A stretch of DNA of 21,102 bases from a virus. A model generated the notes under the pieces. It searched no databases. It saw nothing but the letters and a program-made list of their open reading frames with translations, and had not been told where the DNA came from. The stretch covers positions 1 through 21,102 of IMG/VR virus record IMGVR_UViG_3300010148_000158. One strand, written 5' to 3'. Position numbers and translations under genes: made by a program. This document shows, piece by piece, positions 2,282-19,256 of this stretch. Numbering within the stretch: the stretch's first letter is position 1; every line of letters starts with the position of its first letter.

Positions 2282-2289
2282 CCTTTTAT

Positions 2290-2319
2290 ACAAAACACTA
2301 AATAATTTATTGTATTAAT
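2290..2319 (+). promoter_or_regulatory. Two-box phage promoter candidate, copy A (tail block)
   Basis: ACAAA at 2290-2294 and TTATTGTAT at 2307-2315, 17 bases start to start, with ATG at 2320 (13 bases from the start of the second box). Copies B (12015), C (16136), D (13421) and E (19011) share the spacing. If the second box acts as a -10 element, transcription would begin at or next to the ATG. The ACAAA box then lies near -30, closer than a normal -35 box, as in promoters that need a phage activator. Confidence 0.6.
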
Positions 2320-2994
2320 ATGAAAGTTAAAATAAACGTACCTGAATCACTTAAAGAAATAACTCTAGATCAATACCAAAGATTTGAAAAGTTAAATACA
2401 GAAGAAAATAAAGAATCTACATTCTTACTACAAAAGATGGTAGAGATATTTTGTAACCTCAACTTAAAGGATGTTGCAAACATAAAATACAAATCAGTAC
2501 AAGAAATAGTAGTACACCTCAACAAGATATTTGATAAAAAGCATAGTTTAACACCTACGTTTACTTTAGGCAATGTAGAGTATGGATTTATACCTGTACT
2601 TGATGATATGTCATTAGGAGAGTTTATAGACCTTGATGAGAACTTAGGCAAGTGGGATAATATGCATAAAGCAATGAGTGTATTATATAGACCAATTAAA
2701 TTTAAGAAAGGTAACAAGTACAATATAGAAGAATACAAAGGTATGAACGACAAACTAAAGTATATGACTTTAGATATTGTATTTGGTTCTATGGTTTTTT
2801 TTTATCATTTAAGCAACGAGTTAACACAAACTATCCTGAATTATTTACAGAAGGAGTTGCCGAACAAACTGACTATTCAGCAGAAGGAAGCTTTGGATCA
2901 AAGTGGGGCTGGTATCAGTCGGTCTATGGTATTGCTAAAGGAGATGCTACCAAGTTTGACACGGTTACCAAACTTAACGTCCACAAATGTTTAA
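2320..2994 (+). CDS. Frame-0 product: probable tail assembly chaperone, short form
   Basis: A 224-residue protein read without frameshifting. Residues 1-160 are shared with the long form: a beta-start KINVPESLKEITLDQYQRF, mainly helical segments, and VEYGFIPVLDDMSLGEF near 85-105. After the T run the frame-0 tail reads FYHLSNELTQTILNYLQKEL and then a Gly/Ser-containing helix, a coherent helical end. The last 60 codons use GC-rich codons (CTG, CCG, CGG, GGG) that are rare elsewhere in this window. That would be expected if the other frame also constrains the DNA. The role as chaperone is inferred from the frameshift architecture and tail-gene context; no enzymatic motif is present. Confidence 0.6.
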   Translation: MKVKINVPESLKEITLDQYQRFEKLNTEENKESTFLLQKMVEIFCNLNLKDVANIKYKSVQEIVVHLNKIFDKKHSLTPTFTLGNVEYGFIPVLDDMSLGEFIDLDENLGKWDNMHKAMSVLYRPIKFKKGNKYNIEEYKGMNDKLKYMTLDIVFGSMVFFYHLSNELTQTILNYLQKELPNKLTIQQKEALDQSGAGISRSMVLLKEMLPSLTRLPNLTSTNV

Positions 2995-3056
2995 TGTATC
3001 TAGCATTTGAAAAAGATAAAGTAGAATTAGAAAAGAAGTTAATTAAAAAACGATGA
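2320..3056 (+). CDS. Frameshift product: probable tail assembly chaperone, long form
   Basis: Translation from ATG 2320 with a -1 shift at the T run 2795-2803 (frame 0 through 2802, then re-reading from 2802) gives about 245 residues and ends at TGA 3054-3056, overlapping the next gene's ATG (3053) as ATGA. The -1 segment contains FGSKWGWYQSVYGIAKGD and LNVHKCLMYLAFEKDK, which look strongly protein-like and recall a segment of Bacteroidetes phage proteins. The -1 frame is open from 2715 but has no ATG until near its end, so frameshifting is its likely route of expression. Two products, one by frameshift, in front of tail genes is the G/GT scheme of tail assembly chaperones. The alternative is a sequencing undercall of ten Ts as nine. 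Confidence 0.65.
2795..2803 (+). promoter_or_regulatory. Slippery T9 run, candidate programmed -1 frameshift site
   Basis: Nine consecutive T residues lie in frame as G GTT TTT TTT TAT, giving a T_TTT_TTT heptamer on which both P- and A-site tRNAs can re-pair after a -1 slip. Both frames stay open far downstream (frame 0 to 2994, -1 frame to 3056). No clear stimulatory hairpin was found after it by eye. Confidence 0.65.
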
Positions 3057-3511
3057 AAGGTTTTTACAACGTAACAAAGGAATTAAAAACAGCACTTGCA
3101 GCGGAACCATTTGTTAATACAGTTACATTTGGAAGTTTAGATGATGTAGATTTAAACAAGCAAACTATATTTCCATTATCACACATTATAGTAAACAACA
3201 CAACATTAGGAACTAAAACACTAACATTTAACATTTCTATTCTTGCAATGGACATTGTAGATATAAGCAAAGAAGCAACTGCTGATATATTTGTAGGAAA
3301 CGATAACGAACAAGATGTACTTAATACACAATTAGGATTACTAACAAGAATAATAAACATCTTACAACGTGGTGATTTATATACTGAACTTTACCAAGTA
3401 CAGGGTGATGTAAGTTGTGAACCATTTGTAGATAGGTTTGAAAACAAGTTAGCAGGATGGACTGCAACATTTGATGTAGTAGTACAAAATGATATGACAA
3501 TATGCAGTTAG
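3053..3511 (+). CDS. Putative tail-completion or tail-terminator protein
   Basis: A 152-residue alpha/beta protein with several amphipathic strands (HIIVNNTTLGTKTLTFNISI, then GWTATFDVVVQNDMTIC at the end) and a helix with TRIINILQRGDL. I recall similar proteins in tail regions of flavobacterial phages, next to HK97 gp10-like genes. Its start overlaps the stop of the frameshifted ORF (ATGA at 3053-3056), and its own end overlaps the next gene by ten bases, so it is embedded in the tail operon. The position beside a gp10-like gene suggests a tail terminator or neck role; this is inference from context and size. Confidence 0.5.
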   Translation: MKGFYNVTKELKTALAAEPFVNTVTFGSLDDVDLNKQTIFPLSHIIVNNTTLGTKTLTFNISILAMDIVDISKEATADIFVGNDNEQDVLNTQLGLLTRIINILQRGDLYTELYQVQGDVSCEPFVDRFENKLAGWTATFDVVVQNDMTICS

Positions 3512-4014
3512 AAAACTTAAATAAAGAACTAAATAAGTTTGGTAAGTTTGTAGTACAGCAAGCAAGAACAAGGTTATCTAAAAACAAATCAAAAAAAGGT
3601 AAGGGAACAACCTCATCAGATGGTCAACTATATAAAAGCCTTGCTTATTTTTTAGATAATAAAAAAAATACTTTGTCTTTTGAAATGGAAGACTACGGTA
3701 TGTTTCAGGATCGTGGTGTAAGTGGAACAGAAAAGAAATACAATACACCTTTTTCATATACAAACAAAATGCCCCCTATTAAACCATTAGCACAATGGGC
3801 AAAAAGTAAAAACATAAGATTAAGAGATAAAGAAGGTAAGTTTAAAAAAGGTAGTTATAATACAATAGGGTTTTTAATAGCAAGAAGTATATATAGAAAA
3901 GGATTAAAACCAAGTTTGTTTTTTACAAAACCATTTGAACAAGCGTTTAAAAAACTACCTGATGATTTGGCATTTGCTTTTGGTGAAGATGTAAATAATT
4001 TATTTAGAAACTAA
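3502..4014 (+). CDS. HK97 gp10-like head-tail joining / tail completion protein
   Basis: A 170-residue basic protein. The layout matches the HK97 gp10-like family: an N-terminal helix (LNKFGKFVVQQARTRL), a Lys/Ser-rich loop (LSKNKSKKGKGTTSSDGQL), a strand pair LSFEMEDYGMFQDRGVSGT equivalent to the family's Y-x-x-F-x-(E/D)-x-G-T signature, and a late KPSLFFTKPFEQAFKKL segment. Family members complete the head-tail joint. The start at 3502 overlaps the previous gene, and the stop overlaps the next ATG (TAATG at 4012-4016). Confidence 0.7.
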   Translation: MQLENLNKELNKFGKFVVQQARTRLSKNKSKKGKGTTSSDGQLYKSLAYFLDNKKNTLSFEMEDYGMFQDRGVSGTEKKYNTPFSYTNKMPPIKPLAQWAKSKNIRLRDKEGKFKKGSYNTIGFLIARSIYRKGLKPSLFFTKPFEQAFKKLPDDLAFAFGEDVNNLFRN

Positions 4015-5471
4015 TGAGTACAAAGATAAACGTAAGAAGTCCATATTTTTTAGCTTATAGTGAGCCTACAATACCTACACCTGTATTTGATTGCTTCATA
4101 GCAAACCCAAGAAATTTTAGTATAAACCAACAGGGAATACTTACACTACCTACTTTAGATTATGGTACAATAACAGCAGTTAGTACGGAAAAGTTTGCAA
4201 CAGTAACTTCACCTACAAGTAGAACAGTAACACTTACAATACAAATACCTATAGGATTTAGTAATACAGAAACAGATGGTTTTATTACTTGTGATGTATC
4301 AGCAACACAACCTGCATTTGTAGCAGGTACAACTTGTACACAAAACGTAACAACAAACGGTAGTATTCCTGCACAAACAATAACAGTAGGTGGTAATAGT
4401 GTAACTGTAGATTTATCATCTTATTTTACAGGTGGTACAATAGCAGGATATAATATCATAAACTTTCATACAAATTTAGTTACAGCAGGTGTAAATTCAA
4501 ACACACTTACGCTAACATCTAATCAAATAGGTGGTACTAAAACAATATATATAGAAGCATTTGAAAGTGCATCAGGTACTTGTACTGCAGTTCAATCTAT
4601 AGCAGTTACAGTAAATGGTTTAAGTGCAGCATTTGATTGTACAGCAGCAAATCTTGCTAATGGTGGTGGTAGTATAGCACAAAATGGTACTATTACTGAT
4701 CCTATATCAATAGCAACAATAACAGCAAAAAGTTTAACATCAGGAGGTGGGCATATTACAAGTGTTGCAGCAAATTCAGGTAGTAGTGCAATAGATGTTA
4801 CTTTATTTTTTGATTTAACTGCACCTGTAGGATATACGAATGCAGGAGCAACAGTAATTTGTTCTAAAACATTTAAACAACAAGCTACTTCTACATTACC
4901 AACTTTTGATTGTGATACTGCAAATCTTACAGAGCAAGGTATAAGTACAAGAGGTGATATACACATAGGTAAAACACAATTAGGTACAATACAAGGTTTT
5001 TCACCTATTAATTTTGCAGAAGTTACAACAGAAACAAGTAGGTCAATAGATTTTACAGTTTTAATACCAAGTGGTTATTCAAATACAGGAGATGGTTCAC
5101 AAACTTTAACTTGTACTAAAACAATAACACAACCTGCAAGTTTAGGTGTATGTGGTAGTAATAATTATTTTATATCATCTGGTAAAGCATCACCTACAGA
5201 TTTTTGTGATGGTACATTTCCTACATCAACTGCAATAGTATCAACAGCTTCTAACAGAGAAACAGGAAAAGGTAAAACAGTATGTAAACAAGGTACTGCT
5301 TTTGCAGGGCAAAACTTATATTATGCTGTAAGTACTGTATCAATAAATGCAGGAGCAGGTATAGGTGTAGGTTCATATATTTTATGGCTAATAGATAATA
5401 ATGGAATAGTAACAAATGTTGCAATAGCAAATTGTGATGTTGGTGGTTCAGGGAGTTTTACAAATTTATAG
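4014..5471 (+). CDS. Tail protein with three repeated FDC-type beta domains
   Basis: A 485-residue Thr/Ser/Ala-rich protein with no catalytic motif. A unit of about 75-85 residues occurs three times (residues about 25-101, 207-291, 298-375). Each copy opens with FDC, carries a G-T-I/A-T-I core, then an I/APxGY/FxN turn (IPIGFSN, APVGYTN, IPSGYSN) and closes with a second Cys (C93, C283, C367) before a TQPA/QQA end. Between copies 1 and 2 there is an Ig/cadherin-like segment (VTVDLSSYFTGG). The C-terminus (about 380-485) is a separate Cys-containing domain with SYILWLIDNNG. This looks like a beta-sandwich decoration or receptor-facing tail protein. It sits between tail-completion genes and tail-tip genes. 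Confidence 0.6.
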   Translation: MSTKINVRSPYFLAYSEPTIPTPVFDCFIANPRNFSINQQGILTLPTLDYGTITAVSTEKFATVTSPTSRTVTLTIQIPIGFSNTETDGFITCDVSATQPAFVAGTTCTQNVTTNGSIPAQTITVGGNSVTVDLSSYFTGGTIAGYNIINFHTNLVTAGVNSNTLTLTSNQIGGTKTIYIEAFESASGTCTAVQSIAVTVNGLSAAFDCTAANLANGGGSIAQNGTITDPISIATITAKSLTSGGGHITSVAANSGSSAIDVTLFFDLTAPVGYTNAGATVICSKTFKQQATSTLPTFDCDTANLTEQGISTRGDIHIGKTQLGTIQGFSPINFAEVTTETSRSIDFTVLIPSGYSNTGDGSQTLTCTKTITQPASLGVCGSNNYFISSGKASPTDFCDGTFPTSTAIVSTASNRETGKGKTVCKQGTAFAGQNLYYAVSTVSINAGAGIGVGSYILWLIDNNGIVTNVAIANCDVGGSGSFTNL

Positions 5472-5473
5472 TT

Positions 5474-6460
5474 ATGGCAATAAGTACAGCACAATTAAGT
5501 TTATACATATATACAGGTACATCAGGTTCTTATCAAAACTCTGATTTAAAATATACAATACAAAAAGAAAGAATTAATGCAGATGATGTTATTAATTTTG
5601 AAGTATCAAATCTTGTAAGAGATTATATTGATTTAACTTTTAATAATGATTATTTATCTAAATGTGTATGGGTTACAGCTATTGCAAATTTATTTGATGA
5701 AAACAATGAACCCTTTACTTATAGTAACCCACAAACAAATACTTATTTAGCATTAGATGGATATGGTTATTTTGAAGATGAGGTAAATCCACAACTTTCA
5801 ACAAATGCACTTATATCATCAAACAATATATACTTACCAGAAAATACAGCAGGTAAATTACCAATATTTGCAGAAGGTGTTGGAAAATATATAATAGATT
5901 CTACAACAACACAAGTAACAGATAGTGGTAATACTAATCAAAAAATACAATACATAACAGTTCCTGCAAACAGTTCTACAATACAAATATTTGATACTGA
6001 TGATGCTACATTAAGAAAAACAATAACAGTAAACAATGTCTGTGAACCCAAGTTTACACCTTATAAAATAACATTTGTAAACAAGTTTGGTGCATTTCAA
6101 GATTTATATATGTTCAAGAAAAACATAGAAAATTTAAGCGTTACTGATGAAACATTTAGAAGAAATATAATAGTAAATAATACTACAAGTTATCCTACTT
6201 ATGCAGGGCAAAGTGCAAGATATAATGTTAATGGTCAAACAACACTTACTCTTAACACAGGTTTCATAAAAGAGGATATGAACCAAACTATTGAAGAATT
6301 GTTTTTAACAGAAAATGTATGGATACGATATGAAAACAAAACATTACCTGTAATTCCTAAAACAAAATCATTGGCTTTTAAAACAAGTTTAAATGATAAA
6401 CTAATAAATTATACAATAGAATTTGAATTTGCATTTACAAAAATAAATAGTGTACGTTAA
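5474..6460 (+). CDS. Tail-tip / baseplate-like structural protein
   Basis: A 328-residue protein mostly of beta character. The segment KITFVNKFGAFQDLYMFKKN (about 198-217) is, as I recall, characteristic of a structural protein found next to the large tail gene in flavobacterial phages. An N-terminal half with DVINFEVSNLVRDYI is followed by a linker rich in Thr/Asn. The position directly before the 1277-residue tail protein (TAATG overlap at 6458-6462) suggests a distal tail or hub component that docks to it. The function is inferred from context; no enzyme motifs were seen. Confidence 0.55.
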   Translation: MAISTAQLSLYIYTGTSGSYQNSDLKYTIQKERINADDVINFEVSNLVRDYIDLTFNNDYLSKCVWVTAIANLFDENNEPFTYSNPQTNTYLALDGYGYFEDEVNPQLSTNALISSNNIYLPENTAGKLPIFAEGVGKYIIDSTTTQVTDSGNTNQKIQYITVPANSSTIQIFDTDDATLRKTITVNNVCEPKFTPYKITFVNKFGAFQDLYMFKKNIENLSVTDETFRRNIIVNNTTSYPTYAGQSARYNVNGQTTLTLNTGFIKEDMNQTIEELFLTENVWIRYENKTLPVIPKTKSLAFKTSLNDKLINYTIEFEFAFTKINSVR

Positions 6461-9400
6461 TGTTAAAATTACAGCTTTACATAAAGAATGAAGATGTATC
6501 ATCATCATATCAACATATTGAATTATTTAAAGATGAGAGCATTGAACTTACACAAGCAATACAAGATATAAGGGATATAAAAAAAGTATTTACTGATTTT
6601 ACAAAAACCTTTAATGTACCTGCTTCTAAAAACAACAACAAAATATTTAAACATTTTTACAATTACAATATATTAGATTTTGATGCTAGGAAGAAGTTTG
6701 ATGCTATACTATATTTAAACCACAACCCATTTAAAAAAGGTAAAGTAAAATTAGAAGGTACATCACTACTTTTAAACAAACCACATACATATAGATTAAC
6801 ATTTTTTGGTAGTACTGTAAACTTACCTGATTTAGTAGGAGATGATTATTTAAGTGCATTAAAAATGATTACATCAGATTTTACATTTACATACTCTGAT
6901 GCTAATATAAAAACATATTTAAGTGATGGATTAGATATAACATCTAAAATGATTACTTATACAGATGCAATTATATTTCCATTAATATCACATACTAAAA
7001 GGTTTATATATGACACAAGTGATTCTACTGCAAACACTACTACACAAAATAATATTGCGTATGAAGCAGGAACACAGCACGGATTAGAATTATCACAATT
7101 AAAACCTGCATTAAGAATTTACCCTATAATAAAAGCAATAGAGTTTCAATATGGGATAACTTTTAGTGAACATTTTTTTAATGTTACAAACCCACAATTT
7201 TATAATTTGTATTTATGGTTACATAATAAAACAGGTGGTTTATTTCAAGATGAAGGTAATATAGCAACTGTAGGAGGTTTTAATGTAACTTATTCTGATG
7301 GTGAGGTTATAGATTTAAGAAATAATTACTTTACTACACCACCACCAGATCAATCTACAGGTAGAGCAAAGAAAGAAAGAACATTAGATGTTACAGTTGT
7401 ACCAAGTAATAATTCAGTAAAGTATAATTTAGTAATATTTGAAAATGGAAATGTATTTCAAAGATATGATGATTTAACAGGTGAATATAAAGATATAAGA
7501 AATTTACCATTAAACAGGGGAGATTATAGTTTTGGTATAGAAACAGACACACCATCAACATATGAAATAAGATTTTATGTACAAAGAAAAAGAAGGGTAA
7601 GTGGTATAGCAGATATACATTTTACAGGTACAGCATCAGTATTATCAGATGTAACATTAAATACTTCAAATCAATTGCCTGAAATAAAAGTAATAGATTT
7701 TCTTACAGGCTTATTTAAGATGTTTAATTTAACAGCATTTCAAAATGATGAAGGTGTATTAGTGGTAGAAACACTAGATGAGTTTTACAATAGAAGTACA
7801 AACAAGTGGGATATAACAGAACATCTTGATAAAGAAAGTTCAACAGTAGATAGTGTATTGCCTTTTAAACAAATAGATTTTACATATGAAGGTTTAGATA
7901 ACTTCTTTGCAAAAAATCATAAAGAATTATTTAACATAGATTGGGGTGAGAATAGATTTCAAGCAAGTGCAAAGTTTGAAGGTGAAACATATACAGTAAG
8001 TTTACCTTTTGAACATTTCAAATATGAAAGATTAGTAAATGTAGCAGATGGTGTAAATACTAATGCTCAATGGGGATGGAGTGCAGATATAAAACAACAA
8101 CCTAATCTTGGTAAACCTTTACTTTTTTATCCTATACTTAAAACACAACAAATAGGTGTTATAGATAGTGGTGGTTCGCTTACATCACAAGCATCAATAT
8201 ACATACCTTCTAATTCTGTTTCAACATCTCTAATAAATATATTAAGTATAGATGGATCAGAAAATATAAACTTTAGTGCAGAAAAGAACGAGTTTACTAA
8301 TGTACCCTATTCTAAAACATTGTTTAATCAATATTATAAAAAGTATGTAACAGAAATATTTGATAAACAAAGAAGATTAACAACAGTAAAAGCATATTTA
8401 CCTATTAAGATGTTACACAACTTATCACTTGCAGATAAGGTTATAATATTTGATAGGTTATATAAGATAAATAAGATAACTACAAATTTTGAAACAAACC
8501 TTTCTACATTAGAACTCATAAACATCAAAGAAGAAGTTGTAGGTATTATAGAAACACAAACAGAAGAAATACAACCTATTGTACCTCTTAAATTTACACC
8601 AGATGCAAGATGTTATACCGCAGATTCACAAATAGAACTTGCAGATAATACTTTATTAAAAGCGGATTTAAGTTGTGCTAATGCAGAATTACCTATTGTT
8701 TCATTTGATGAAGAAGTACCACAAGATACAGCTATTAGTAATATTCCTGTAGTAGTAGATGTACCTCTTGTTGTAACAACTGCAACTATAAGCACGCCAG
8801 ATGTTAGTCAATTAACAAATAACTCATCAACAACAGTAACATTAAGAGGTAAAATAGATGAATTAGGTGAAATAGGTAATACACCAAGTTTAGATGAATA
8901 TGGATTTATACATTCACCTACCATTGATGTTTTAAAAGGTGATGATTTAGATACCATTATAGGTAGAACAGGAGTTACACAACATAAAATTACAGATGAT
9001 AAAACAGAAGGCGAAAAACTATTAGAACTTACAGGTTTAACTGATCCTGAAACAATATTTTATAGGTTTTATACAAGAACAAATACAGATAGTAATTTTG
9101 ATGAAGCAAATGAAATGACAACAATTACCTCATCAAGTACAGTACCTGCATCACCATATAGTGAAACAACAAACTCTATAAATTACAAAATATCTACAAC
9201 TGCAGATAACCCTGTTGATACAATAAGAACAATTAGAATAAAAACAGATGGTGGTGATTTAGTGGATTATGTAACATCAGGTACATTTGATGTACAATCT
9301 AAAATAGTGCCTTATGTAGTAGAAGGTGTGCCAATACCTACAAATAGCATAACAACACAATACAATGTTACTTCAAACGGTTTAGATGGTATGTTAGAAA

Positions 9401-10293: not shown

Positions 10294-10294
10294 T

Positions 10295-10435: not shown

Positions 10436-12015
10436 GTTTAAAAAAAATTATAGAAGTAGAAGCTAAAGTAGATGATGCTAAAAAAGGTTTAGATAGTGTA
10501 AACAAAAGTGTACAACGTATAGATAAAAACCTTGAAGATGTTAAAGATACAACAGGTGGGGTTGCCAAAGGTGTAAAAGGTATTGGTACTGCTCTTAAAG
10601 CTGCTGGTATTGGTTTAGCTATTGCAGCATTTTCTAAACTTGCAGAAGTATTTAATGAAAACCAAAAAGTAACAGATGCTTTTAGTACTGCCTTTGAAGC
10701 ATTGAGTTTAGCCTTTAATGACTTTTTTAAATTTCTTAATGCAAACGTTGGTACTGTTATGGAATACTTTAAAGGTATTTTTGATGATCCTGTACAATCA
10801 ATTAAAAATTTTGGTTCATCTATTAAACAAGGTATTATAGATAGATTAAAACAAGGTTTAGAAGCATTAGGTTTATTTGGTAAAGCAGCTATTAAGTTTT
10901 TTGCAGGTGATTTTGCAGGAGCAGCACTTACTGCTAAACAAGCATCAAAAGAATTATTTGATATAGTAACAGGAGAAGATGGTGGGTTTGAAAAAATAAC
11001 TGAATCTGTAAAAACAGCAGTAAATGGAATAACTGAATATGCTAAATCAACTGTACAAGCTGCAAGAGCAACAGTTGACCTAAACAAACAAGCAGAAGTA
11101 GCTGCTGTTATCAATCAAGGGTTAATAGAAAAGTACGATAGACAAGCAGAGCAACAAAGACAGCTACGAGATGATGAAACAAAAACAATAGAAGAACGTA
11201 TAGCTGCAAACAATAGGTTAGGAGAAATACTAGATGAGCAAAGTGAAAAAATGCTTGAAAATGTTGATTTACAAATTAAAGCAGCACAATTAGAATTTAA
11301 TAAAAACCAAAACCAAGAAAACTATATAGCATTATTAGAAGCACAAAATGAACGTGAAGCTGTACTTGCACAAATAGAAGGTTTTAGATCAGAACAATTA
11401 ATAAACAGAATATCTTTACAAAGAGAAGCAGGTGAGTTAGCAATAGAGGATGCAGAAAAACTAATTGAATTAGAAGAAAAAAGAAAAGAAGCTATATATG
11501 GTGCTATGGATGCTGTAGCTGAAGCAGCAGGTGAAGAAAGTAAAATAGCAAAAGCATTGTTTCTTTTAAAAACAGGTTTTATAATTAACGAACAAATACT
11601 TGAAGCACAAGCAACATTACAAAGTATTATAAATTCAGCAGCAGAATCAGGGGTAGATGGAGCAAAAGGGTTTATGAAAGCAGCAGCAGCAGCACCTCCT
11701 CCTGCAAACGTGCCTTTAATAGCAATATTTGCAACACAAGCAGCAGGTATAGCAATGAGTATTAAGAGTGCAGTAAGTGCTGCTAAATCTATGGTAGGAA
11801 GTAAAGGTGGCGGAGCAGGTATGAGTGGTGGTCGTGGAGTATCTGCACCAGCACCTCCATCATTTAACGTAGTAGGAGCAGCACCTGAAAACCAATTAGC
11901 ACAAACAATAGGCGATCAACAAGATAAACCTATAAAAGCATTTGTAGTAAGTGGTGATGTAAGCACAGCACAATCACTAGACCGTAATATAGTAGAAGGT
12001 GCTTCAATAGGATAA
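10432..12015 (+). CDS. Tape measure protein
   Basis: 527 residues, helical and Ala/Lys/Glu-rich. The N-terminus reads as a typical tape measure start (VEAKVDDAKKGLDSVNKSVQ, then IDKNLEDVKDTTGGVAKGVK). It is followed by a hydrophobic Gly/Ala helix at about 48-68, long coiled-coil segments between about 220 and 370 (EAQNEREAVLAQIEGFR), and a second hydrophobic Ala/Pro/Ile segment near 410-450 with a Gly-rich linker after it. By the usual 0.15 nm per residue rule it would set a tail of about 80 nm. It lies downstream, not upstream, of the tail-tip genes, which is unusual. A conserved hydrophobic pair is consistent with membrane interaction during DNA ejection. Confidence 0.8.
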   Translation: MSLKKIIEVEAKVDDAKKGLDSVNKSVQRIDKNLEDVKDTTGGVAKGVKGIGTALKAAGIGLAIAAFSKLAEVFNENQKVTDAFSTAFEALSLAFNDFFKFLNANVGTVMEYFKGIFDDPVQSIKNFGSSIKQGIIDRLKQGLEALGLFGKAAIKFFAGDFAGAALTAKQASKELFDIVTGEDGGFEKITESVKTAVNGITEYAKSTVQAARATVDLNKQAEVAAVINQGLIEKYDRQAEQQRQLRDDETKTIEERIAANNRLGEILDEQSEKMLENVDLQIKAAQLEFNKNQNQENYIALLEAQNEREAVLAQIEGFRSEQLINRISLQREAGELAIEDAEKLIELEEKRKEAIYGAMDAVAEAAGEESKIAKALFLLKTGFIINEQILEAQATLQSIINSAAESGVDGAKGFMKAAAAAPPPANVPLIAIFATQAAGIAMSIKSAVSAAKSMVGSKGGGAGMSGGRGVSAPAPPSFNVVGAAPENQLAQTIGDQQDKPIKAFVVSGDVSTAQSLDRNIVEGASIG

Positions 12016-12044
12016 CAAAATAGATAAATAATTATTGTATTAAT
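12012..12044 (+). promoter_or_regulatory. Two-box phage promoter candidate, copy B (protease block)
   Basis: ATAACAAA at 12012-12019 (ACAAA from 12015), TTATTGTAT at 12032-12040, ATG at 12045. The box spacing is 17 and the distance to ATG is 13, identical to copies A and C. The 29-base gap between the tape measure stop and this ATG holds the element almost entirely. Confidence 0.6.
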
Positions 12045-13049
12045 ATGGACATAGTAGAACTTTTTATAGATGAAAATGATGAGGTTTCTGGAATTGAAGC
12101 AATATCAGTAGTAGAAAACCCAGCAATAGAAGAAAACTTTATAGCACTAAAAAACCAAGAGTTTAAACTTGCAGAAGTAGACAAAGAAAAGCGTATACTT
12201 ATGGGTGCTGCTTTGATACCTAACAAACCTATCTACCGTACAAATGGTGAGCAGGAATATTATATATACTTTAGTCAAGCAACTGTACGTAAAGCAAGTG
12301 AATTATTCTTTATAAAAGGTAACCAAAACAACTCAACATTAGAACATCAATTAGAACTTAAAGGGTTAACTGCTGTAGAAAGTTGGATAGTAGAAAGTGA
12401 ACAAGATAAAAGCCGTATGTACGATTTAAACGTGCCTATTGGTACTTGGATGGTATCTATGAAAGTAAATAACGATGATGTTTGGAAAAAAGTAAAAGCA
12501 GGAGAAGTAAAAGGGTTTAGTATTGAAGGTTACTTTGCAGATAAGTTAGAAAGACCAAACGAACCTGTAAAAGATAAGATGTCCGAGCAAGAAGAAATGG
12601 CTAACGAATTAGTTGAAGAACTAAAGCACATACTAAAAGAAGAAAATTTAGAATCTTATTCAGATTATCCAAGTGGTGTTAAAAACAATGCTAAAAAAGG
12701 TATTGAACTAAACGAAAAAGTAAACAACAAGTGTGCAACACAAGTAGGAAAAGTAAGGGCACAACAATTAGCACAAGGCAAACCAATAACTACAGAAACT
12801 ATTAAAAGGATGTTTAGTTATTTAAGCAGAGCACAAGAAGATTATGATGAAAATGATAGTAAAGCGTGTGGTACTATATCTTACTTATTGTGGGGTGGAA
12901 AAGCAGGTTTACGTTGGGCGGGTGCTAAACTTAAAGAACTTGATTTAATAGAAGAAGATTTAAAAAAGCCTTGTTACAATGGTTATGAAATGATAGGTTT
13001 CAAAATTAAAAACGGTAGAAAAGTACCTAATTGCGTACCAATAAAATAA
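12045..13049 (+). CDS. XkdF-like prohead protease with an extra C-terminal domain
   Basis: 334 residues. The N-terminal two-thirds match the XkdF-type phage serine protease family: ALIPNKPIYR (56-65), H101 in TLEHQ, WIVESEQDK (114-122), PIGTWMVSMK (131-140), and GFSIEGYF (157-164) with the likely nucleophile S159. After an acidic linker (about 178-200) comes a distinct domain (about 205-300) with YPSGVKNNAKKGIELNEK, ATQVGKVRAQQLAQGKPI and GTISYLLWGGKAGLRWA, which I recall from other Bacteroidetes phage head proteins. The protease would process capsid and scaffold proteins; neighbours downstream are a scaffold-like gene and the capsid gene. The role of the second domain is not known to me. Confidence 0.75.
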   Translation: MDIVELFIDENDEVSGIEAISVVENPAIEENFIALKNQEFKLAEVDKEKRILMGAALIPNKPIYRTNGEQEYYIYFSQATVRKASELFFIKGNQNNSTLEHQLELKGLTAVESWIVESEQDKSRMYDLNVPIGTWMVSMKVNNDDVWKKVKAGEVKGFSIEGYFADKLERPNEPVKDKMSEQEEMANELVEELKHILKEENLESYSDYPSGVKNNAKKGIELNEKVNNKCATQVGKVRAQQLAQGKPITTETIKRMFSYLSRAQEDYDENDSKACGTISYLLWGGKAGLRWAGAKLKELDLIEEDLKKPCYNGYEMIGFKIKNGRKVPNCVPIK

Positions 13050-13050
13050 T

Positions 13051-13413
13051 ATGAGTAGAATACCAAGTCCACAATCAGGTCGTAGAGGTTGCTTATGTAA
13101 AGATGATACATATTCTATAGAATGTTGCAATGGTAGCTTTCAAGCTCAAGGCGTAGGAAATGTAACAGGTACAATAGAAACACCAGGTGCAGGAGAATAT
13201 GGTTATAGGGTAGAAAAATGTGGACATAGCCAAAAAAAACACTTTTATGGTTCTACACAATTAGTAGTAGGCAATGTATATTATATAAATGCAGATCACG
13301 ATAACCATGATGGTTGTTATACTGTATTAAGCCAAGATCAAAACGCACACGGACATCATTTTAGTGCTGTAACATTATATAACGATTGTACAGCGTGTCA
13401 AGCAGCAAACTAA
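13051..13413 (+). CDS. Cys/His-rich protein, possible metal-binding virion protein
   Basis: 120 residues with eight Cys (14, 16, 25, 26, 57, 89, 113, 116) and seven His (59, 64, 83, 86, 100, 102, 103). The opening GRRGCLCKDDTYSIECCNGS is a signature I recall from a small protein encoded near head genes of flavobacterial phages. The middle (LVVGNVYYINADHDNHDGCY) looks like beta strands. The spacing of CxC, CC and CxxC suggests zinc or iron-sulfur binding, or disulfides. It starts one base after the protease stop, so it is in the same unit. Function unknown. Confidence 0.6.
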   Translation: MSRIPSPQSGRRGCLCKDDTYSIECCNGSFQAQGVGNVTGTIETPGAGEYGYRVEKCGHSQKKHFYGSTQLVVGNVYYINADHDNHDGCYTVLSQDQNAHGHHFSAVTLYNDCTACQAAN

Positions 13414-13417
13414 AAAT

Positions 13418-13451
13418 ATAACAAACTAAATATTAATTTATTATAATATAT
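13418..13451 (+). promoter_or_regulatory. Two-box phage promoter candidate, copy D (scaffold/capsid block)
   Basis: ATAACAAA at 13418-13425 (ACAAA from 13421) and TTATTATAA at 13438-13446, spacing 17; ATG at 13452, 14 bases from the second box. The second box differs from copies A-C at two or three positions. Confidence 0.5.
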
Positions 13452-14051
13452 ATGAAAGCAACAGATATGTTAAACAAAGTAAAAGAGGTACTTGGGGTAG
13501 AGTTATCTGAAGTACCTTTAGAAGTAAAGTTGGCACAAGCCGAACTTGAGAACGGTACAATTATAGAAAGCGAAAATTTTGAAGCTGGAGCAGAAGTGTT
13601 TATTGTTACCGAAGATGAAAAAGTAGCAATGCCTGTAGGCGAATACAAACTTGTAGATGGTGAATCATTAATTGTTGAAGAAGAAGGTATTATTGCTTCT
13701 ATCGGTGCAGTTGAAGAAGCACCAGAAGAAGAAGTAGAAGCTGAAAAAAAAGAAGAAATGGGTTATGCTACTAAACAAGAACTTCAAGAGGTTAAAGAAA
13801 TGGTTGAAGAAATTAAATCAATGCTTGAACCTAAAGAAGAAATGGCTGAAGAACCTGTAGAAGAAAATTCTGTTAAATCAGAAGAAACAACTACAAAAAC
13901 TGTATACGCTGAAAAAGAAGATTTAAGCGAAGTACAAAAGGTTACTCATAACCCTGAAAAAGAAAACAAACCTAACTTAAACTTGTATTCACAAAAAAGA
14001 ACTAATACAACTTTAGATAGAGTGTTAAATAAAATATCAAACATAAAATAA
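13452..14051 (+). CDS. Scaffold-like head assembly protein
   Basis: 199 residues. The N-terminal part (1-90) is beta-rich, with AQAELENGTIIESENFEAGA, VFIVTEDEKVAMPVGEYKL and IVEEEGIIASIG; I recall this from proteins encoded just before flavobacterial phage capsid genes. The second half is strongly acidic and helical (EEAPEEEVEAEKKEEM, then KQELQEVKEMVEEIKSML), and the end is basic (SQKRTNTTLDRVLNKI). An acidic coiled coil with a basic tail next to the protease and capsid genes fits an internal scaffold that is later degraded. There are no catalytic motifs. Confidence 0.65.
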   Translation: MKATDMLNKVKEVLGVELSEVPLEVKLAQAELENGTIIESENFEAGAEVFIVTEDEKVAMPVGEYKLVDGESLIVEEEGIIASIGAVEEAPEEEVEAEKKEEMGYATKQELQEVKEMVEEIKSMLEPKEEMAEEPVEENSVKSEETTTKTVYAEKEDLSEVQKVTHNPEKENKPNLNLYSQKRTNTTLDRVLNKISNIK

Positions 14052-14058
14052 ATAAATA

Positions 14059-14466
14059 ATGTCAACAACAATAACAACTTCAAATGATGTGTTGAGAGCA
14101 AGATCAGAGCAAGAAACTTTGACTACTACTCAAGATATTCCTGTAAACAAAGCAGGTACCGAATTTAATATAGCAACAGATGCTAAAGTAATGACTTTAC
14201 CAGCTATTACATCTGAAAATATTGGAATGGAATTTACATTCCGTAATACAGGTGCTGACGGTAACAACATTATCACTATTTCACCTGCTTCAACAGATGC
14301 AATTCACGGTACTGTAGGTTCAGTATCTTCTGGTGGTGTAGATGATAAAGATTGGATTAACACAAAAGCAACTGCAAATAAAGGCGATTGGTGTTCACTA
14401 AAAGCTGTAGCACTTACTGACTGGTATTTAACCGGCGGTGATGGTGTATGGGCAAGTGAATCGTAA
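14059..14466 (+). CDS. Probable capsid decoration protein
   Basis: 135 residues, Thr/Ala/Gly-rich and beta-structured: KVMTLPAITSENIGMEFTFR, then NNIITISPASTDAIHG, then KGDWCSLKAVALTDWYLTGG. The placement seven bases after the scaffold gene and immediately before the major capsid gene is that of a head-stabilising or decoration protein. I recall this fold type in marine phages as a small beta-rich virion protein. The alternative is a generic adhesive virion domain, because a similar pattern occurs in tail-fibre pieces. The start context is the A-rich AAATAAATA typical of Bacteroidetes. Confidence 0.5.
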   Translation: MSTTITTSNDVLRARSEQETLTTTQDIPVNKAGTEFNIATDAKVMTLPAITSENIGMEFTFRNTGADGNNIITISPASTDAIHGTVGSVSSGGVDDKDWINTKATANKGDWCSLKAVALTDWYLTGGDGVWASES

Positions 14467-14491
14467 TAAATAAACTTATAAATAAAATAAA

Positions 14492-15418
14492 ATGGCAACA
14501 ACAAACTCAATAACTACTACGTATTCCGGTGAATTTGCTGGTCAGTACATTTCTGCCGCGTTACTTAGTGGGGCAACTTTGGATAATGGATTAATTACCA
14601 TTAAGCCAAATATTAAATTTAAAGAAGTGATTAAAAAAGTATCAAGTGATGATATCGTAAAAGATGCAACTTGTGATTTTGATCCAACTTCAACTTTAAC
14701 ACTTACAGAACGTATTTTACAGCCTGATTTTCAGCAAGTAAATTTACAACTATGTAAAGCAGACTTTCATAACGATTGGGAAGCTGTACAAATGGGATAT
14801 AGCGCTTTTGATAGCCTACCTCCATCATTTGCTGACTTTTTAATCGGACATGTAGCTTCTAAAGTTGCACAACGTACTGAACAATCTATTTGGAATGGTG
14901 CTGCTGCAACAGCAGGACAGTTTGGTGGATTTAAAGAACTACTTTTAGCTGATGCTGATGTAACAGATGTAGGAGCTGGTGCTGCTGTAACTGCTGCTAA
15001 TGCAATTGATAAAATTGGTTTAGTAGTAGACGCAATAGGTAGTTCACTTTATACTTCAGAAGATATGTTTATTTATGTATCACAAAATGTAGCTAGAGCA
15101 TATGTAAGAGCGCTTGGCGGATTTGCAAGTAATCTTGGTGCAGCAGGTACAGATGATAAAGGTACACAATGGTACAACGGTGGAGGTCTATCTTTTGATG
15201 GTATTAAAATCGCAGTAGCAAATGGATTAGCTGATAATACAATGGTCGCAGCAGAAAAATCTAACTTATTCTTTGGTACTGGTCTTTTAGCAGACCATAA
15301 CGAGGTAAAAGTTATCGATATGGCTGACATTGATGGTTCACAGAACGTAAGAGTAGTAATGAGATTCACAGCAGGTGTTCAGTATGGCATCGGTAGCGAT
15401 ATCGTACTTTATTCTTAA
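14492..15418 (+). CDS. Major capsid protein
   Basis: 308 residues, presumably HK97-fold. Segments such as TERILQPDFQQVNLQLCKAD, NDWEAVQMGYSAFDSLPPSF, GHVASKVAQRTEQSIWNGA and the end VVMRFTAGVQYGIGSDIVLY match what I recall of flavobacterial phage capsid proteins. Context agrees: protease, scaffold and decoration genes lie upstream, and a strong terminator follows, as expected for the most highly expressed gene. There is no long N-terminal delta domain, consistent with a separate scaffold gene. Confidence 0.9.
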   Translation: MATTNSITTTYSGEFAGQYISAALLSGATLDNGLITIKPNIKFKEVIKKVSSDDIVKDATCDFDPTSTLTLTERILQPDFQQVNLQLCKADFHNDWEAVQMGYSAFDSLPPSFADFLIGHVASKVAQRTEQSIWNGAAATAGQFGGFKELLLADADVTDVGAGAAVTAANAIDKIGLVVDAIGSSLYTSEDMFIYVSQNVARAYVRALGGFASNLGAAGTDDKGTQWYNGGGLSFDGIKIAVANGLADNTMVAAEKSNLFFGTGLLADHNEVKVIDMADIDGSQNVRVVMRFTAGVQYGIGSDIVLYS

Positions 15419-15439
15419 TAGATAATTAACCAATAAATT

Positions 15440-15476
15440 AGGTGGGTAAGCCAATAGTGCCTACTCACCTTTTTTT
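15440..15476 (+). terminator. Strong intrinsic terminator after the capsid gene
   Basis: Stem arm AGGTGGGTAAGC (15440-15451), loop CAATAGT (15452-15458), arm GCCTACTCACCT (15459-15470) and a T-tract to 15476. The stem has twelve positions with one A-C mismatch and one G-T pair. It lies between the capsid and tail tube genes. Confidence 0.85.
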
Positions 15477-15493
15477 ATTTAAAATATATAGAT

Positions 15494-16069
15494 ATGGCTT
15501 GTGATTTAACACTTGGTAGAAAAGAACCCTGCAAAGATGTTGTAGGTGGCTTAAAAAATGTTTATTTTGTCGATTTTGGTGATTTAGGTACGGTAACCTT
15601 AACAAATGATGAAATAACAAATATGACAGGTAGTTCTGGTAGTTTAACAGCATTTAAGTACGAATTAAAAGGAAATAGTAGCTTTGAACAAGCTATTACT
15701 TCTTCACGTGAAAACGGTACAACTTTTGTTGAACAGACTTTAACTTTAACTTTGAAAAAACTTACTAAAGAAGATAATAAAGAGTTAAAACTGTTGGCTT
15801 ACGGTAGACCCCACGTTGCCGTAGAAGACTATAATGGTAATGTATTTATGATGGGATTAGAACACGGTGCAGAAGTAACAGGTGGTACTATTTCCACAGG
15901 TGCTGCAATGGGTGATTTATCAGGATATACATTAACGATGGCAGCAACAGAACTTGCACCTGCTAACTTTATGGATTCGGATACAAAAGATATAGACTTC
16001 CCATTTAGTGTAGTAGATTATGCAGGATTAGATGGTACAGTAACTATTACTTTAGGAACAAATACTTAA
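15494..16069 (+). CDS. Major tail tube protein
   Basis: 191 residues. The segments KLTKEDNKELKLLAYGRPHV, VEDYNGNVFMMGLEHGAEVT and GYTLTMAATELAPANFMD recall the major tail protein of flavobacterial siphoviruses. The whole protein is beta-rich, as expected for a tube subunit that polymerises around the tape measure. It stands alone between two terminators and, unlike neighbouring blocks, has no ACAAA/TTATTGTAT element upstream; the start context is AAAATATATAGATATG. Expression by read-through past the capsid terminator is therefore possible. Confidence 0.8.
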   Translation: MACDLTLGRKEPCKDVVGGLKNVYFVDFGDLGTVTLTNDEITNMTGSSGSLTAFKYELKGNSSFEQAITSSRENGTTFVEQTLTLTLKKLTKEDNKELKLLAYGRPHVAVEDYNGNVFMMGLEHGAEVTGGTISTGAAMGDLSGYTLTMAATELAPANFMDSDTKDIDFPFSVVDYAGLDGTVTITLGTNT

Positions 16070-16091
16070 TAGGGTTTTCATTTGGTAAATT

Positions 16092-16123
16092 AAGGGGTAG
16101 CCTAACGGTTACCCTTTTTTTTT
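16092..16123 (+). terminator. Intrinsic terminator after the tail tube gene
   Basis: Arm AAGGGGTAGCC (16092-16102), loop TAAC (16103-16106), arm GGTTACCCTTT (16107-16117), with the T-tract continuing to 16123. The core is eight pairs with one G-T, plus three weaker closing pairs. Confidence 0.85.
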
Positions 16124-16132
16124 GTTTTAATA

Positions 16133-16165
16133 ATAACAAATTTCATACTTTTTTATTGTATATAT
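16133..16165 (+). promoter_or_regulatory. Two-box phage promoter candidate, copy C (portal block)
   Basis: ATAACAAA at 16133-16140 (ACAAA from 16136), TTATTGTAT at 16153-16161, ATG at 16166. Spacing 17 and distance 13 are the same as in copies A and B. It follows the terminator at 16092-16123 by about ten bases. Confidence 0.6.
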
Positions 16166-16510
16166 ATGATAGTATTACAAGAAAGTGGATCAGCGCAAAA
16201 TATTGATTTTATACCAAGAGAATTTACTGCAAACGCATCTTATACGGTTAAAATAACAGATGAAACGCAAAACAAAGAAGTGTACAGTCAAGCAACAACA
16301 AGTATATCACAAAACTTATACTTCAATAGGTACAATGCTGTGTTTCCTGTAAAACAAGATATTTATTACACACTTAAAATACTTTCAGGTAGTTCAGTTG
16401 TATTTTTAGATAAAATATACTGTACAAACCAAACAGATTTACCAGCTTACACAATAAACAACGGTGAGTATACTTCTAATGCCACTACAAACGAATTTAT
16501 CACAATATAA
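16166..16510 (+). CDS. Conserved-looking small structural protein of unknown role
   Basis: 114 residues, almost wholly predicted beta: SYTVKITDETQNKEVYSQAT, then YYTLKILSGSSVVFLDKIYC, then TNQTDLPAYTINNGEYTSNA. I recall the CTNQ...YTxNxGEYT pattern from a small protein adjacent to tail and portal genes of Bacteroidetes phages, without a known function. It overlaps the portal ATG (TAATG at 16508-16512), so it is cotranslated with the portal. It could be a tail or neck beta-sandwich. Confidence 0.5.
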   Translation: MIVLQESGSAQNIDFIPREFTANASYTVKITDETQNKEVYSQATTSISQNLYFNRYNAVFPVKQDIYYTLKILSGSSVVFLDKIYCTNQTDLPAYTINNGEYTSNATTNEFITI

Positions 16511-18435
16511 TGGATAACTTACATATAGTAAAATTAGCTTCTTACAACCGCCCTAAAATAAGCGAAGATAAGCAAAAAGAATGGGTCAATTATGGAGAAG
16601 ATAATGATTATTATTCTTACTTAATTAAACTTTATACAGATTCAACTACTAATAACGCAATTATTAACGGAGTTAGTAATATGATATACGGTAAAGGGTT
16701 AGATGCTTTAGATAGCAACACCAAAACAAACGAGTATGCTGCAATGCGATCTATTATAAGCAATGTATGTTTAAAAAAGGTTGTACTAGATTTAAAACTA
16801 TTAGGTGAGGGTTCTTTTCAAGTACTTTACAAAGATAATAAAGTATTTAAAGCCGAGCATTTTCCGCGTCAAACATTACGTGCTGAAAAAATGAATGAAG
16901 ATGGTGAGATAGAAGGGTACTATTATGCGCCAGACTGGACAAAAATAAAGCCAAAAGACAAACCAGAACGTATAGCAGCATTTGGTTTTGGCAACGGAAA
17001 AGAGCCAGAAATTAAAATAATAAAAAAATATGTTAGCGGCTACGATTACTACTGCCCTGTAGATTACCAAGGAGGCTTATCTTATGCTGAGCTTGAAAGC
17101 GAGATCTCTGATTATTTAATTAATGATGTTCAACATGGCTTTAGCGGGACTAAAGTAGTAAACTTTAATAATGGCGTCCCTGATCGCGAGAAACAGATGC
17201 AAGTTAAGAATGATGTAATGTCAAAACTTACAGGCGCAAGAGGTGAAAAAGTAGTAATTGCATTTAACAACAATGCAGAAAGCAAAACAACAGTTGATGA
17301 CATACCATTAAACGATGCACCTCAACATTATGAATATTTATCAAATGAATGTAGTAATAAGTTAATAGTTTCGCATAGGGTGACTTCACCTTTATTATTG
17401 GGTATACGTACCGAAAACAATGGTTTAGGATCAAATGCAGACGAAATAAAAACCGCTGCGCTACTTTTTGACAATATTACTATAAAACCTTATCAAGAAC
17501 TTATATGCGAATGTATAGATGATATATTAGCTGTTAATGGTATTAGTTTAAAACTATATTTTAAAACACTTCAACCGTTAGCATTTATAGAAACAGATAA
17601 TGCAGTAACAGATGAAGTACGTGAAGAAGAAACAGGTGTAAAAAGAGAATTTACTTTAAAAAGCCAAGTAGTAGATAAAGACTTTGCTATTATAGATGAT
17701 AGGTTAGCATATGCAACAAAAGAAATGGCAATAGAAGCTGCTAAAAACATTGGTTGTGAAGGTCATCACGAACACGAATACGAAGGTAAGATATGGTATA
17801 TGCCTTGCGAGCAGCATAAGCAAAGTAATTTAAGTGCTGAAACAGATGATAAAGTATTTGATTTGCTTGATGAGTTTGGTGAAGATGAAGATTTAGAAAA
17901 TTGGGATTTAGTAGATGAACGCAAAGTAGACTATGACCAAGAAGAAGCATTAGATAAAATGGTAGGTTTAGCATCTACAGGTAGTGCAAGATCAAATGCA
18001 AAAAGCGAACAAGATGGTGAAGCAGATAATATGAAGTTTAAAGTACGTTATCAATATGCACCATTAACAGTTTCTGCTAACAGCAGGGAGTTTTGTAGAA
18101 AAATGGTATCAGCTAAAAAGATATACCGTAAAGAAGATATAATGCAAATGAGTAAACAACCTGTTAATGCTGGTTGGGGTAAAGGTGGTGCTGCAACTTA
18201 CGATATTTGGCTCTACAAAGGCGGTGGATCGTGTAGGCATTTTTGGATGCGAAAAACGTATATGGCTAAAGGTGTAAAACCAGATGCTACTAACCCAAAT
18301 GCAGAAATAAGTGTAAATGAAGCAAAGAAAGAAGGTTTTAAACCTGAAACTAATGATGCTAAAGTTGCAAAAAGACCAAGAGATATGAAAAATAGAGGGT
18401 TTATAAAACCTAAAAACTTTACAACACCACGATAG
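16510..18435 (+). CDS. Portal protein with a long C-terminal extension
   Basis: 641 residues. The first ~390 read as a Bacteroidetes-phage portal: VNYGEDNDYYSYLIKLY, IINGVSNMIYGKGLD, LKLLGEGSFQVLYKDNKVF, YCPVDYQGGLSYAELESEIS, and SPLLLGIRTENNGLGSNADE near residue 300. Portals form the dodecameric DNA gate. The remaining ~250 residues hold a His/Cys cluster at 419-436 (HHEHEY ... MPCEQH), an acidic stretch (about 450-495), and a domain at about 508-585 (KVRYQYAPLTVSAN, KIYRKEDIMQMSKQPVNAGW, GGGSCRHFWMRKTY) that looks like a separate fused module. Most portals lack this. The start overlaps the upstream stop. Confidence 0.85.
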   Translation: MDNLHIVKLASYNRPKISEDKQKEWVNYGEDNDYYSYLIKLYTDSTTNNAIINGVSNMIYGKGLDALDSNTKTNEYAAMRSIISNVCLKKVVLDLKLLGEGSFQVLYKDNKVFKAEHFPRQTLRAEKMNEDGEIEGYYYAPDWTKIKPKDKPERIAAFGFGNGKEPEIKIIKKYVSGYDYYCPVDYQGGLSYAELESEISDYLINDVQHGFSGTKVVNFNNGVPDREKQMQVKNDVMSKLTGARGEKVVIAFNNNAESKTTVDDIPLNDAPQHYEYLSNECSNKLIVSHRVTSPLLLGIRTENNGLGSNADEIKTAALLFDNITIKPYQELICECIDDILAVNGISLKLYFKTLQPLAFIETDNAVTDEVREEETGVKREFTLKSQVVDKDFAIIDDRLAYATKEMAIEAAKNIGCEGHHEHEYEGKIWYMPCEQHKQSNLSAETDDKVFDLLDEFGEDEDLENWDLVDERKVDYDQEEALDKMVGLASTGSARSNAKSEQDGEADNMKFKVRYQYAPLTVSANSREFCRKMVSAKKIYRKEDIMQMSKQPVNAGWGKGGAATYDIWLYKGGGSCRHFWMRKTYMAKGVKPDATNPNAEISVNEAKKEGFKPETNDAKVAKRPRDMKNRGFIKPKNFTTPR

Positions 18436-18437
18436 TT

Positions 18438-18941
18438 ATGGCTGAAGCATTATTTGTTACTCGTAAAGATATTGTAAAATACACTAATGTATCAGGAGGT
18501 GTAGATACTGATAAGTTTATACAATATGTTAAGATTGCACAAAATATACATATACAAAATTATATAGGTACAAAGCTATATGATAAAATAAGTACAGATA
18601 TCATAGCTGGTAATTTAACAGGACATTATGCAACATTAGTAGAAAACCATATAAAGCCTTGTTTAGTACATTGGGCAATGGTTGAGTATTTACCATTTGC
18701 TGCTTACACGGTATCTAATAAAGGTGTTTATAAGCATAGTAGTGAAAACGCTGAAAACGTATCTAAAACAGAAGTAGATTTTTTAATAGAAAAAGAACGT
18801 ACAACAGCACAATACTATACTGATAGAATGATAGAACATTTTAGTTTTTATGCAGCAGAGAGATATGCTGAATACTACACTAATAATAACGATAACGTAT
18901 ATCCGGATAAGGATGCTAATTTTTCTGGTTGGGTTTTATGA
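18438..18941 (+). CDS. Head-tail connector (head completion) protein
   Basis: 167 residues, helical. HIQNYIGTKLYDKISTDI, LTGHYATLVENHIKPCLVHW, AMVEYLPFAAYTVSNKGVYK and SKTEVDFLIEKERTTAQYYT are the order I recall from the DUF6712-type connector family in Bacteroidetes phages, which sits beside the portal. It begins two bases after the portal stop. Such proteins form the ring beneath the portal and create the docking site for the tail. The stop overlaps the ATG of a 30-residue ORF (ATGA at 18938-18941). Confidence 0.75.
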   Translation: MAEALFVTRKDIVKYTNVSGGVDTDKFIQYVKIAQNIHIQNYIGTKLYDKISTDIIAGNLTGHYATLVENHIKPCLVHWAMVEYLPFAAYTVSNKGVYKHSSENAENVSKTEVDFLIEKERTTAQYYTDRMIEHFSFYAAERYAEYYTNNNDNVYPDKDANFSGWVL

Positions 18942-19030
18942 TTAAAAGGACTTATAAACCAAAACAACATAATATAGTTAAGTTAAAAAACTATTTAAAA
19001 AGGATGTATAACAAAAAAGTAAAAAAGTAA
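18938..19030 (+). CDS. Very small basic ORF, 30 residues
   Basis: ATG 18938 overlaps the connector stop as ATGA, and TAA lies at 19028-19030. Twelve of the 30 residues are Lys or Arg (for example KLKNYLKRMYNKKVKK), so the product would be highly basic and helical, possibly nucleic-acid or membrane binding. The ATGA junction is the same coupling used by real genes in this window. Against it: a Lys-rich reading is easy to obtain from A-rich DNA, and its 3' end overlaps the promoter-like element at 19008. Confidence 0.35.
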   Translation: MIKRTYKPKQHNIVKLKNYLKRMYNKKVKK

Positions 19031-19040
19031 TTATATATAC
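19008..19040 (+). promoter_or_regulatory. Two-box phage promoter candidate, copy E (tail-fibre block)
   Basis: ATAACAAA at 19008-19015 (ACAAA from 19011) and TAATTATAT at 19028-19036, spacing 17; ATG at 19041, distance 13. The second box matches the A-C form at seven of nine positions. Confidence 0.45.
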
Positions 19041-19247
19041 ATGGCTAATAATATAAATTGGGGCAAAGTTTATTGTAATATGGAAACTAATTCTGCTTGG
19101 GGAGCGGATGAAGCATATACAACTGAATTTATACCTGATTTTTCTGCTCCAAGTTGTTGGACTTTAGTACCTGCTTTTACAGCGGATACAACATTATACA
19201 AAGCAGATACAACATTATTTACAGCAGATGCAACACAAATAACATAA
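19041..19247 (+). CDS. Small tail-associated protein with a heptad repeat end
   Basis: 68 residues. The N-terminus INWGKVYCNMETNSAWGADE is, as I recall, of a type seen in small proteins near tail-fibre genes of flavobacterial phages. The C-terminus contains three copies of a seven-residue unit (FTADTTL, YKADTTL, FTADATQ), encoded by a 21-base tandem repeat. It is the first gene of the last block and lies ten bases before a tail-fibre-like gene. The role is unknown; a fibre or tail accessory role is inferred from position. Confidence 0.5.
   Translation: MANNINWGKVYCNMETNSAWGADEAYTTEFIPDFSAPSCWTLVPAFTADTTLYKADTTLFTADATQIT
19176..19238 (+). repeat. Three-copy 21-base in-frame tandem repeat
   Basis: Units at 19176-19196, 19197-19217 and 19218-19238 each encode [FY]-[TK]-A-D-[TA]-T-[LQ]. 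The units are imperfect copies sharing GC(A/G)GATACAACATTA-like cores. They lie at the 3' end of the 68-residue ORF. Confidence 0.8.
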
Positions 19248-19256
19248 TATAAAAAA

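Follow-up and report, generated by a model that had tools for sequence, protein, structure and literature searches.

A two-box element of fixed spacing, almost certainly a late promoter and probably read by a phage-encoded sigma factor, in a mostly uncultured phage family

The DNA analysed here (IMG/VR virus record IMGVR_UViG_3300010148_000158, positions 1 to 21,102; the whole stretch of 21,102 nucleotides (nt) is called the window) carries a small terminase-like gene (terS) and the tail, head maturation protease, scaffold/major capsid, portal and fibre blocks of a phage (Table 1), and a two-box element lies directly upstream of the first gene of each of these five blocks. The element is almost certainly a late promoter of a large, mostly uncultured family of phages infecting marine flavobacteria, and it is probably read, through a −30 and a −10 box and with transcription starting at or near the ATG, by a small extracytoplasmic function (ECF)-like sigma factor that the phages themselves encode. 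In agreement with a preliminary description of this DNA, the ACAAA motif of box 1 starts at 2290, 12015, 13421, 16136 and 19011 and box 2 at 2307, 12032, 13438, 16153 and 19028, 17 nt start to start at all five sites, and the ATGs (2320, 12045, 13452, 16166 and 19041) follow the start of box 2 by 13, 13, 14, 13 and 13 nt. Box 1 reads ATAACAAA at four of the five sites and TATACAAA at 2287; box 2 reads TTATTGTAT at three, TTATTATAA at 13438 and TAATTATAT at 19028, and ends 4-5 nt 5′ of the ATG at all five. The promoter of the protease block overlaps the 3′ end of the preceding gene, whose stop ends at 12015. Tightly coupled genes in the window, including the major capsid (14492) and portal (16510) genes, lack the element, also as described. 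A weak sixth copy, absent from that description, precedes terS with its box 1 placed 50 nt from the ATG at 124, and is predicted to give a leader of about 20 nt.

Table 1. Copies of the two-box element (almost certainly late promoters), genes and terminator-like stem-loops in the window
Feature	Position	Strand	Details
Weak sixth promoter copy	74..99	+	ACAAT-N12-TTATTATAT; 2 mismatches; matrix rank 7; small terminase orthologues score strongly
Small terminase-like gene	124..363	+	Named by position ahead of the large terminase gene
Terminator-like stem-loop closing the preceding unit	2258..2277	+	Just 5′ of the tail-block promoter
Late promoter, tail block	2287..2315	+	TATACAAA-N12-TTATTGTAT; ATG 2320; stem-loop 2258-2277 directly upstream
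First gene of tail block	2320..2994	+	PHROG 32199, function unassigned
Late promoter, head maturation protease block	12012..12040	+	ATAACAAA-N12-TTATTGTAT; ATG 12045
Head maturation protease gene	12045..13049	+	PHROG 3017, E 4e-16
Late promoter, scaffold/major capsid block	13418..13446	+	ATAACAAA-N12-TTATTATAA; ATG 13452
Probable scaffold gene	13452..14051	+	Matches C-terminal part of PHROG 24921
Major capsid-like protein gene	14492..15418	+	No own promoter copy
Terminator-like stem-loop closing the preceding unit	16092..16117	+	Just 5′ of the portal-block promoter
Late promoter, portal block (114-amino-acid gene, then portal)	16133..16161	+	ATAACAAA-N12-TTATTGTAT; ATG 16166
Portal gene	16510..18435	+	Coupled to the 114-amino-acid gene at 16166; PHROG 33693, E 2e-104
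Late promoter, fibre block	19008..19036	+	ATAACAAA-N12-TAATTATAT; ATG 19041

A search of the window for the pattern with three mismatches gave 23 matches against a shuffle mean of 16.5, no clear excess, and the caution about chance in AT-rich DNA voiced at the outset was thus justified. Because this loose count was unconvincing, relatives were used as an independent source. A weight matrix built from 28 sites of five diverged relatives, with the spacer ignored, ranked the five sites of the window first to fifth (25.3, 24.7, 21.1, 17.4 and 15.8) and the terS copy seventh. Scores above 14 number five in the window against 0.19 per shuffled copy, and none was found on the window's other strand. 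The comparison with shuffles and relatives that had been proposed as a check on the gapped motif therefore came out in its favour, the trained matrix standing well above shuffles and the element being conserved in relatives. A generic sigma70 promoter scan yielded fewer sites than in shuffles.

With the capsid protein encoded at 14492 as query, 80 loci of uncultured phages were recovered at 70-100% identity, and gene starts in these relatives were set by homology, independently of the motif. The element was found in the upstream regions of orthologues of the protease, scaffold, 114-amino-acid (aa), fibre, tail and small terminase genes and was not found upstream of the orthologues of the capsid and portal genes. 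Matrices from which a genome's own clade had been left out were applied to six relatives of 27-34 kb, three of them circular, and located 6-7 sites per genome, all on the coding strand and nearly all at the terS, tail, protease, scaffold, 114-aa and fibre orthologues or at a gene inserted between protease and scaffold; in the early region of the six no site was found. The proposal that each copy heads a virion gene block is thus borne out beyond the window, by a distribution in the six relatives that is that of a late promoter. The terS-orthologue sites of genomes G001, G004, G019, G022 and G023 score 17-24 with these held-out matrices. Two coding-strand matches, G001 30746 and G004 13337, were left unlabelled by the automatic ATG look-up, and the former lies 30 nt 5′ of a protease gene that spans the contig end. 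The extra protease-scaffold gene, with its own promoter copy, occupies 1020-1532 in G001, 7654-7986 in G004 and the same place in G019, G020 and G021, which suggests that gene and promoter copy travel as a pair.

The spacer between the boxes is exactly 12 nt in 50 coding-strand copies and in none on the other strand, and other spacer lengths are near zero. From box 1 to the ATG the distance is 30-31 nt in 55 of the 64 candidates; elsewhere it is 39, 43 (three) or 50-52 nt (three), at copies before the inserted gene, scaffold and terS, with the box spacing unchanged. Since the box spacing stays constant while the distance to the ATG shifts, the element is to be read as a promoter and not as a translation signal.

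Box 2 varies between clades. In diverged genomes it takes GTTAT-like or other forms while box 1 remains ACAAA-like, the clade forms named being TTATTGTA and GTTAT, and at the scaffold promoter of relatives it reads TTATTGTAA or TTATTGTAT. Among the tail, protease and 114-aa promoters of 19 representatives, the cross-gene identity of box 2 was 0.695 against 0.496 after permutation (p 0.0002); the same permutation showed no concerted effect for the spacer (p 0.17) or the upstream DNA (p 0.53). The permutation ignores the kinship of the genomes, a kinship that the null spacer and upstream controls share. Concerted change of box 2 at unrelated promoters of one genome points to a reader acting in trans.

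The candidate for this reader is a sigma-like protein of about 160-200 aa, present in each of the 29 genomes whose sequence extends into the early region; the three of 32 genomes without its gene are fragments, the window among them. AlphaFold2 (64 sequences) predicts two helical domains and a linker with a predicted local distance difference test score (pLDDT) of 87, and the predicted model has the ECF fold, with regions 2 and 4, a linker and no region 3. Its leading matches among solved structures are the ECF sigmas SigL (E 7e-4), sigmaE, SigH and AlgU, and region 4 of the model agrees to 1.9 Å with sigmaE region 4 on −35 DNA. Overall TM-scores are 0.3-0.4, with single domains at about 2-4 Å and identities of about 10-19%; low overall scores would follow from a variable orientation of the two domains towards each other. 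The named matches from a structure search of viral proteins include phage ECF sigmas. At E up to 0.01, 13 of the 64 members match Pfam Sigma70_r2 (best 7e-7) and 14 match Sigma70_r4_2 (best 3e-5). Furthermore, box 2 distance between genomes correlates with sigma distance (r 0.62), an association that persists after correction for capsid distance. The sigma model also matches 9n9q_C, a sigma-like chain of an RNA-guided transcription complex. A capsid-gene search of bacterial genomes for hosts returned only three metagenome bins (L310, L311 and L312), of which L310 (Bacteroidia) appears to carry a partial sigma-like gene too, around 6975, and L311, labelled Woesearchaeota, is probably mis-binned.

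Nonlabens phage P12024S, a cultured phage with a capsid protein 30% identical to that of the window, encodes a homologue of the sigma family, gp33 (hhalign 96.7%, E 4e-10), recorded as a hypothetical protein with sigma-70 region 2 noted and passing the Sigma70_r2 Pfam cut-off. Sequence searches of GenBank phages gave no match with the core-clade sigma as query and only P12024S/L with a diverged member. Seven gene starts of P12024S (179, 3031, 5412, 21280, 23961, 25201 and 26802) carry a promoter-like element consisting of an ACA-type box, about 15 nt and then CGTTA, with the ATG directly after; the start at 21280 lies two genes 5′ of the large terminase gene.

From these features we infer both the reader of the element and the transcription start point. 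Box 1 (ATAACAAA, −33 to −26, taking the A of the ATG as +1) would act as a −35-type element and box 2 (TTATTGTAT, −13 to −5), 12 nt away, as a −10-type element. The host RNA polymerase core would carry the small ECF-like sigma, made from the early region, with sigma region 2 reading box 2 and region 4 reading box 1, and host-type TTG/TAnnTTTG promoters would drive the early genes. With only 4-5 nt between the end of box 2 and the ATG, late transcription would start at the ATG or within about 3 nt of it, and most late mRNAs would be leaderless or nearly so, which the geometry of most sites fits. The −7 element of Flavobacterium johnsoniae extends from −12 to −5 (PMC6847099). The terS copy and several copies in relatives must give short leaders.

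Alternative explanations differ in which of these observations they leave unaccounted for. Chance similarity within AT-rich intergenic DNA would fit the loose three-mismatch counts close to shuffles; it is ruled out by the matrix ranking, the conservation in relatives, the fixed spacing and the concerted change of box 2, and what probability it retains is vanishingly small. The element could also be an A/T-rich context for translation initiation, held at a fixed distance from the ATG, since most copies lie 30-31 nt away and flavobacteria use sequence just 5′ of the ATG in place of a Shine-Dalgarno sequence (PMC6847099). This is hardly plausible, and is largely refuted by the copies that have moved relative to the ATG: those of terS and some of scaffold stand 9-25 nt farther away with their box spacing unchanged. 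The capsid and portal genes, which also need strong translation, have no element, and two copies in the window directly follow terminator-like stem-loops. Furthermore, the A content upstream of the tail, protease, 114-aa and scaffold starts is 0.32-0.46 against 0.68 for capsid, which speaks against a translation signal and, for most promoter-led starts, is weak evidence that a leader is missing.

If the element is a promoter, it might be served by the host polymerase with its own sigma, assisted by a phage activator on box 1 in the manner of MotA. A DnaA_C-type protein is the candidate: in 29 of the 32 genomes there is one of 131-181 aa with DNA-binding domain PF08299 (6e-14), and it is encoded just ahead of terS, the location of late regulators in many phages. 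This account is unlikely. Box 2 differs from the host −7 element, TAHHTTTG, and its concerted variation between clades would be left unexplained by an activator on box 1; moreover, the distance between DnaA_C-type proteins adds nothing given the sigma distance (0.02, p 0.39), and the box 2-sigma correlation given the DnaA_C protein is 0.48 (p 0.0005). The DnaA C-terminal DNA-binding domain was seen in a 131-aa protein encoded shortly 5′ of terS (L092:3123-3518, that is, G001 18923-19318). Alternatively, an ECF sigma of the host could read the promoter, the phage protein having another role. Flavobacteria have several ECF sigmas, with seven in Flavobacterium psychrophilum, where the −10 box of one motif class is CGT (PMC9723704), like the CGTTA of P12024S, so the idea has a basis. 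It is nevertheless highly unlikely, given that all 29 genomes with an early region have their own sigma-like gene, that the boxes change together with this gene, and that the distant CGTTA form is likewise paired with a homologous sigma gene. Of the two kinds of regulator first suggested, a phage activator or a phage sigma factor, a phage sigma reading both boxes is thus favoured and a MotA-type activator disfavoured.

Several observations weigh against recognition of the late promoters by the phage sigma as set out above. At 21 kb, the window is a fragment that lacks the early region, and its own sigma gene is not seen. Sequence searches score the sigma weakly, with most members below Pfam cut-offs, and when the sigma profile was run against PDB by sequence it returned no sigma chain, only antibody noise. 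The gene starts in relatives rest on placement by homology, which is not proof; box 2 is weak or unclear at some genes in G032, G036 and G038; and a few entries of the loosely matched list (G000 12240, G003 28430) fall inside genes by chance. Finally, box 2 distance correlates with protease distance (0.63) equally well as with sigma distance, so that common descent is inseparable from recognition, and partial correlation is of no help here. On balance, the evidence leans towards the full picture of an abundant, mostly uncultured phage family with its own ECF-like sigma, two-box late promoters, mostly leaderless mRNAs and sigma/−10-box pairs that have diverged together.

Several relatives have host-type TTG...TAnnTTTG promoters in gaps of the early region, and G003 (4481) has an exact host-type match, TATATTTG, in front of a small gene located past the large terminase gene and ahead of the tail block. 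The late elements are unlike this flavobacterial promoter, as had been stated, with neither a TAHHTTTG −7 box nor a TTG at about −33. In the window, a near host-type promoter at 1551-1582 (TTG at 1551, then TATATTTA) stands before a small 65-aa gene (1619-1816) at the corresponding location. This gene seems to be an early-expressed insert within the late genes. PHROG 24921 matches the protease with its N-terminal part and the probable scaffold with its C-terminal part. A likely terminator lies 3′ of the capsid gene (15419-15493; GGTGGGTAAGCC...CTACTCACC, then a T-run), and the next gene, at 15494, has no promoter copy and may rely on read-through past it. An Rfam scan of the window gave no match.

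The promoter rule allows early and late units to be told apart in these genomes, and the analysis names a probable regulator. If the proposal is right, the family offers Bacteroidota a natural series of sigma-promoter pairs with differing specificity, and matching pairs are possible expression tools for flavobacteria. About 5.5% of F. psychrophilum mRNAs are leaderless (PMC9723704); starts at the ATG would make most late operons of these phages dependent on leaderless translation, in hosts with few such mRNAs. The question can be addressed directly in a culturable phage-host pair (P12024S).

Among known systems, the middle promoters of T4 (MotA box plus sigma70 −10) share a box near −30 together with a −10-type box, but no MotA-like protein was found among the early genes scanned, and box 2 is phage-variable and not the host −7 element. 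Promoters of the flavobacterial primary sigma share the position relative to the start point and, with box 2, T-12 and A-11; here the box has no TTTG core and no −33 TTTG/TTG, with ACAAA instead. Cellular ECF sigmas (Escherichia coli sigmaE, Mycobacterium tuberculosis SigL and SigH, and AlgU) have the region 2-linker-region 4 fold predicted here, and the −10 boxes of diverged relatives are of their CGTT/GTT type, whereas the upstream box is ACAAA-like and not GGAAC, the upstream box typical of many ECF promoters. The viral structure matches include proteins named 'ECF sigma factor' in Cronobacter phage GAP52 (E 0.02) and 'sigma factor' in Citrobacter phage CVT22 (E 7e-4). Phage-encoded sigmas with promoters of their own are known from phiEco32 and 7-11 (PMC4331800), where, as proposed here, a phage sigma turns transcription to the structural genes. 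The phiEco32 consensus tAATGTAtA (PMC4331800) resembles the TATTGTATA form of box 2 in some copies, which may be coincidence. The motif of phiEco32 and 7-11 is a single short block, unlike the two boxes 12 nt apart with mostly leaderless starts predicted here, and the present phages, of 30-35 kb and related to flavobacterial phage, are unlike those two. In a search of the open-access literature, no late promoter or late sigma factor was found described in a Bacteroidetes phage. The kind itself, a phage sigma with its promoters, is thus known, and what is new is the two-box form, the phage group and the probable leaderless starts.

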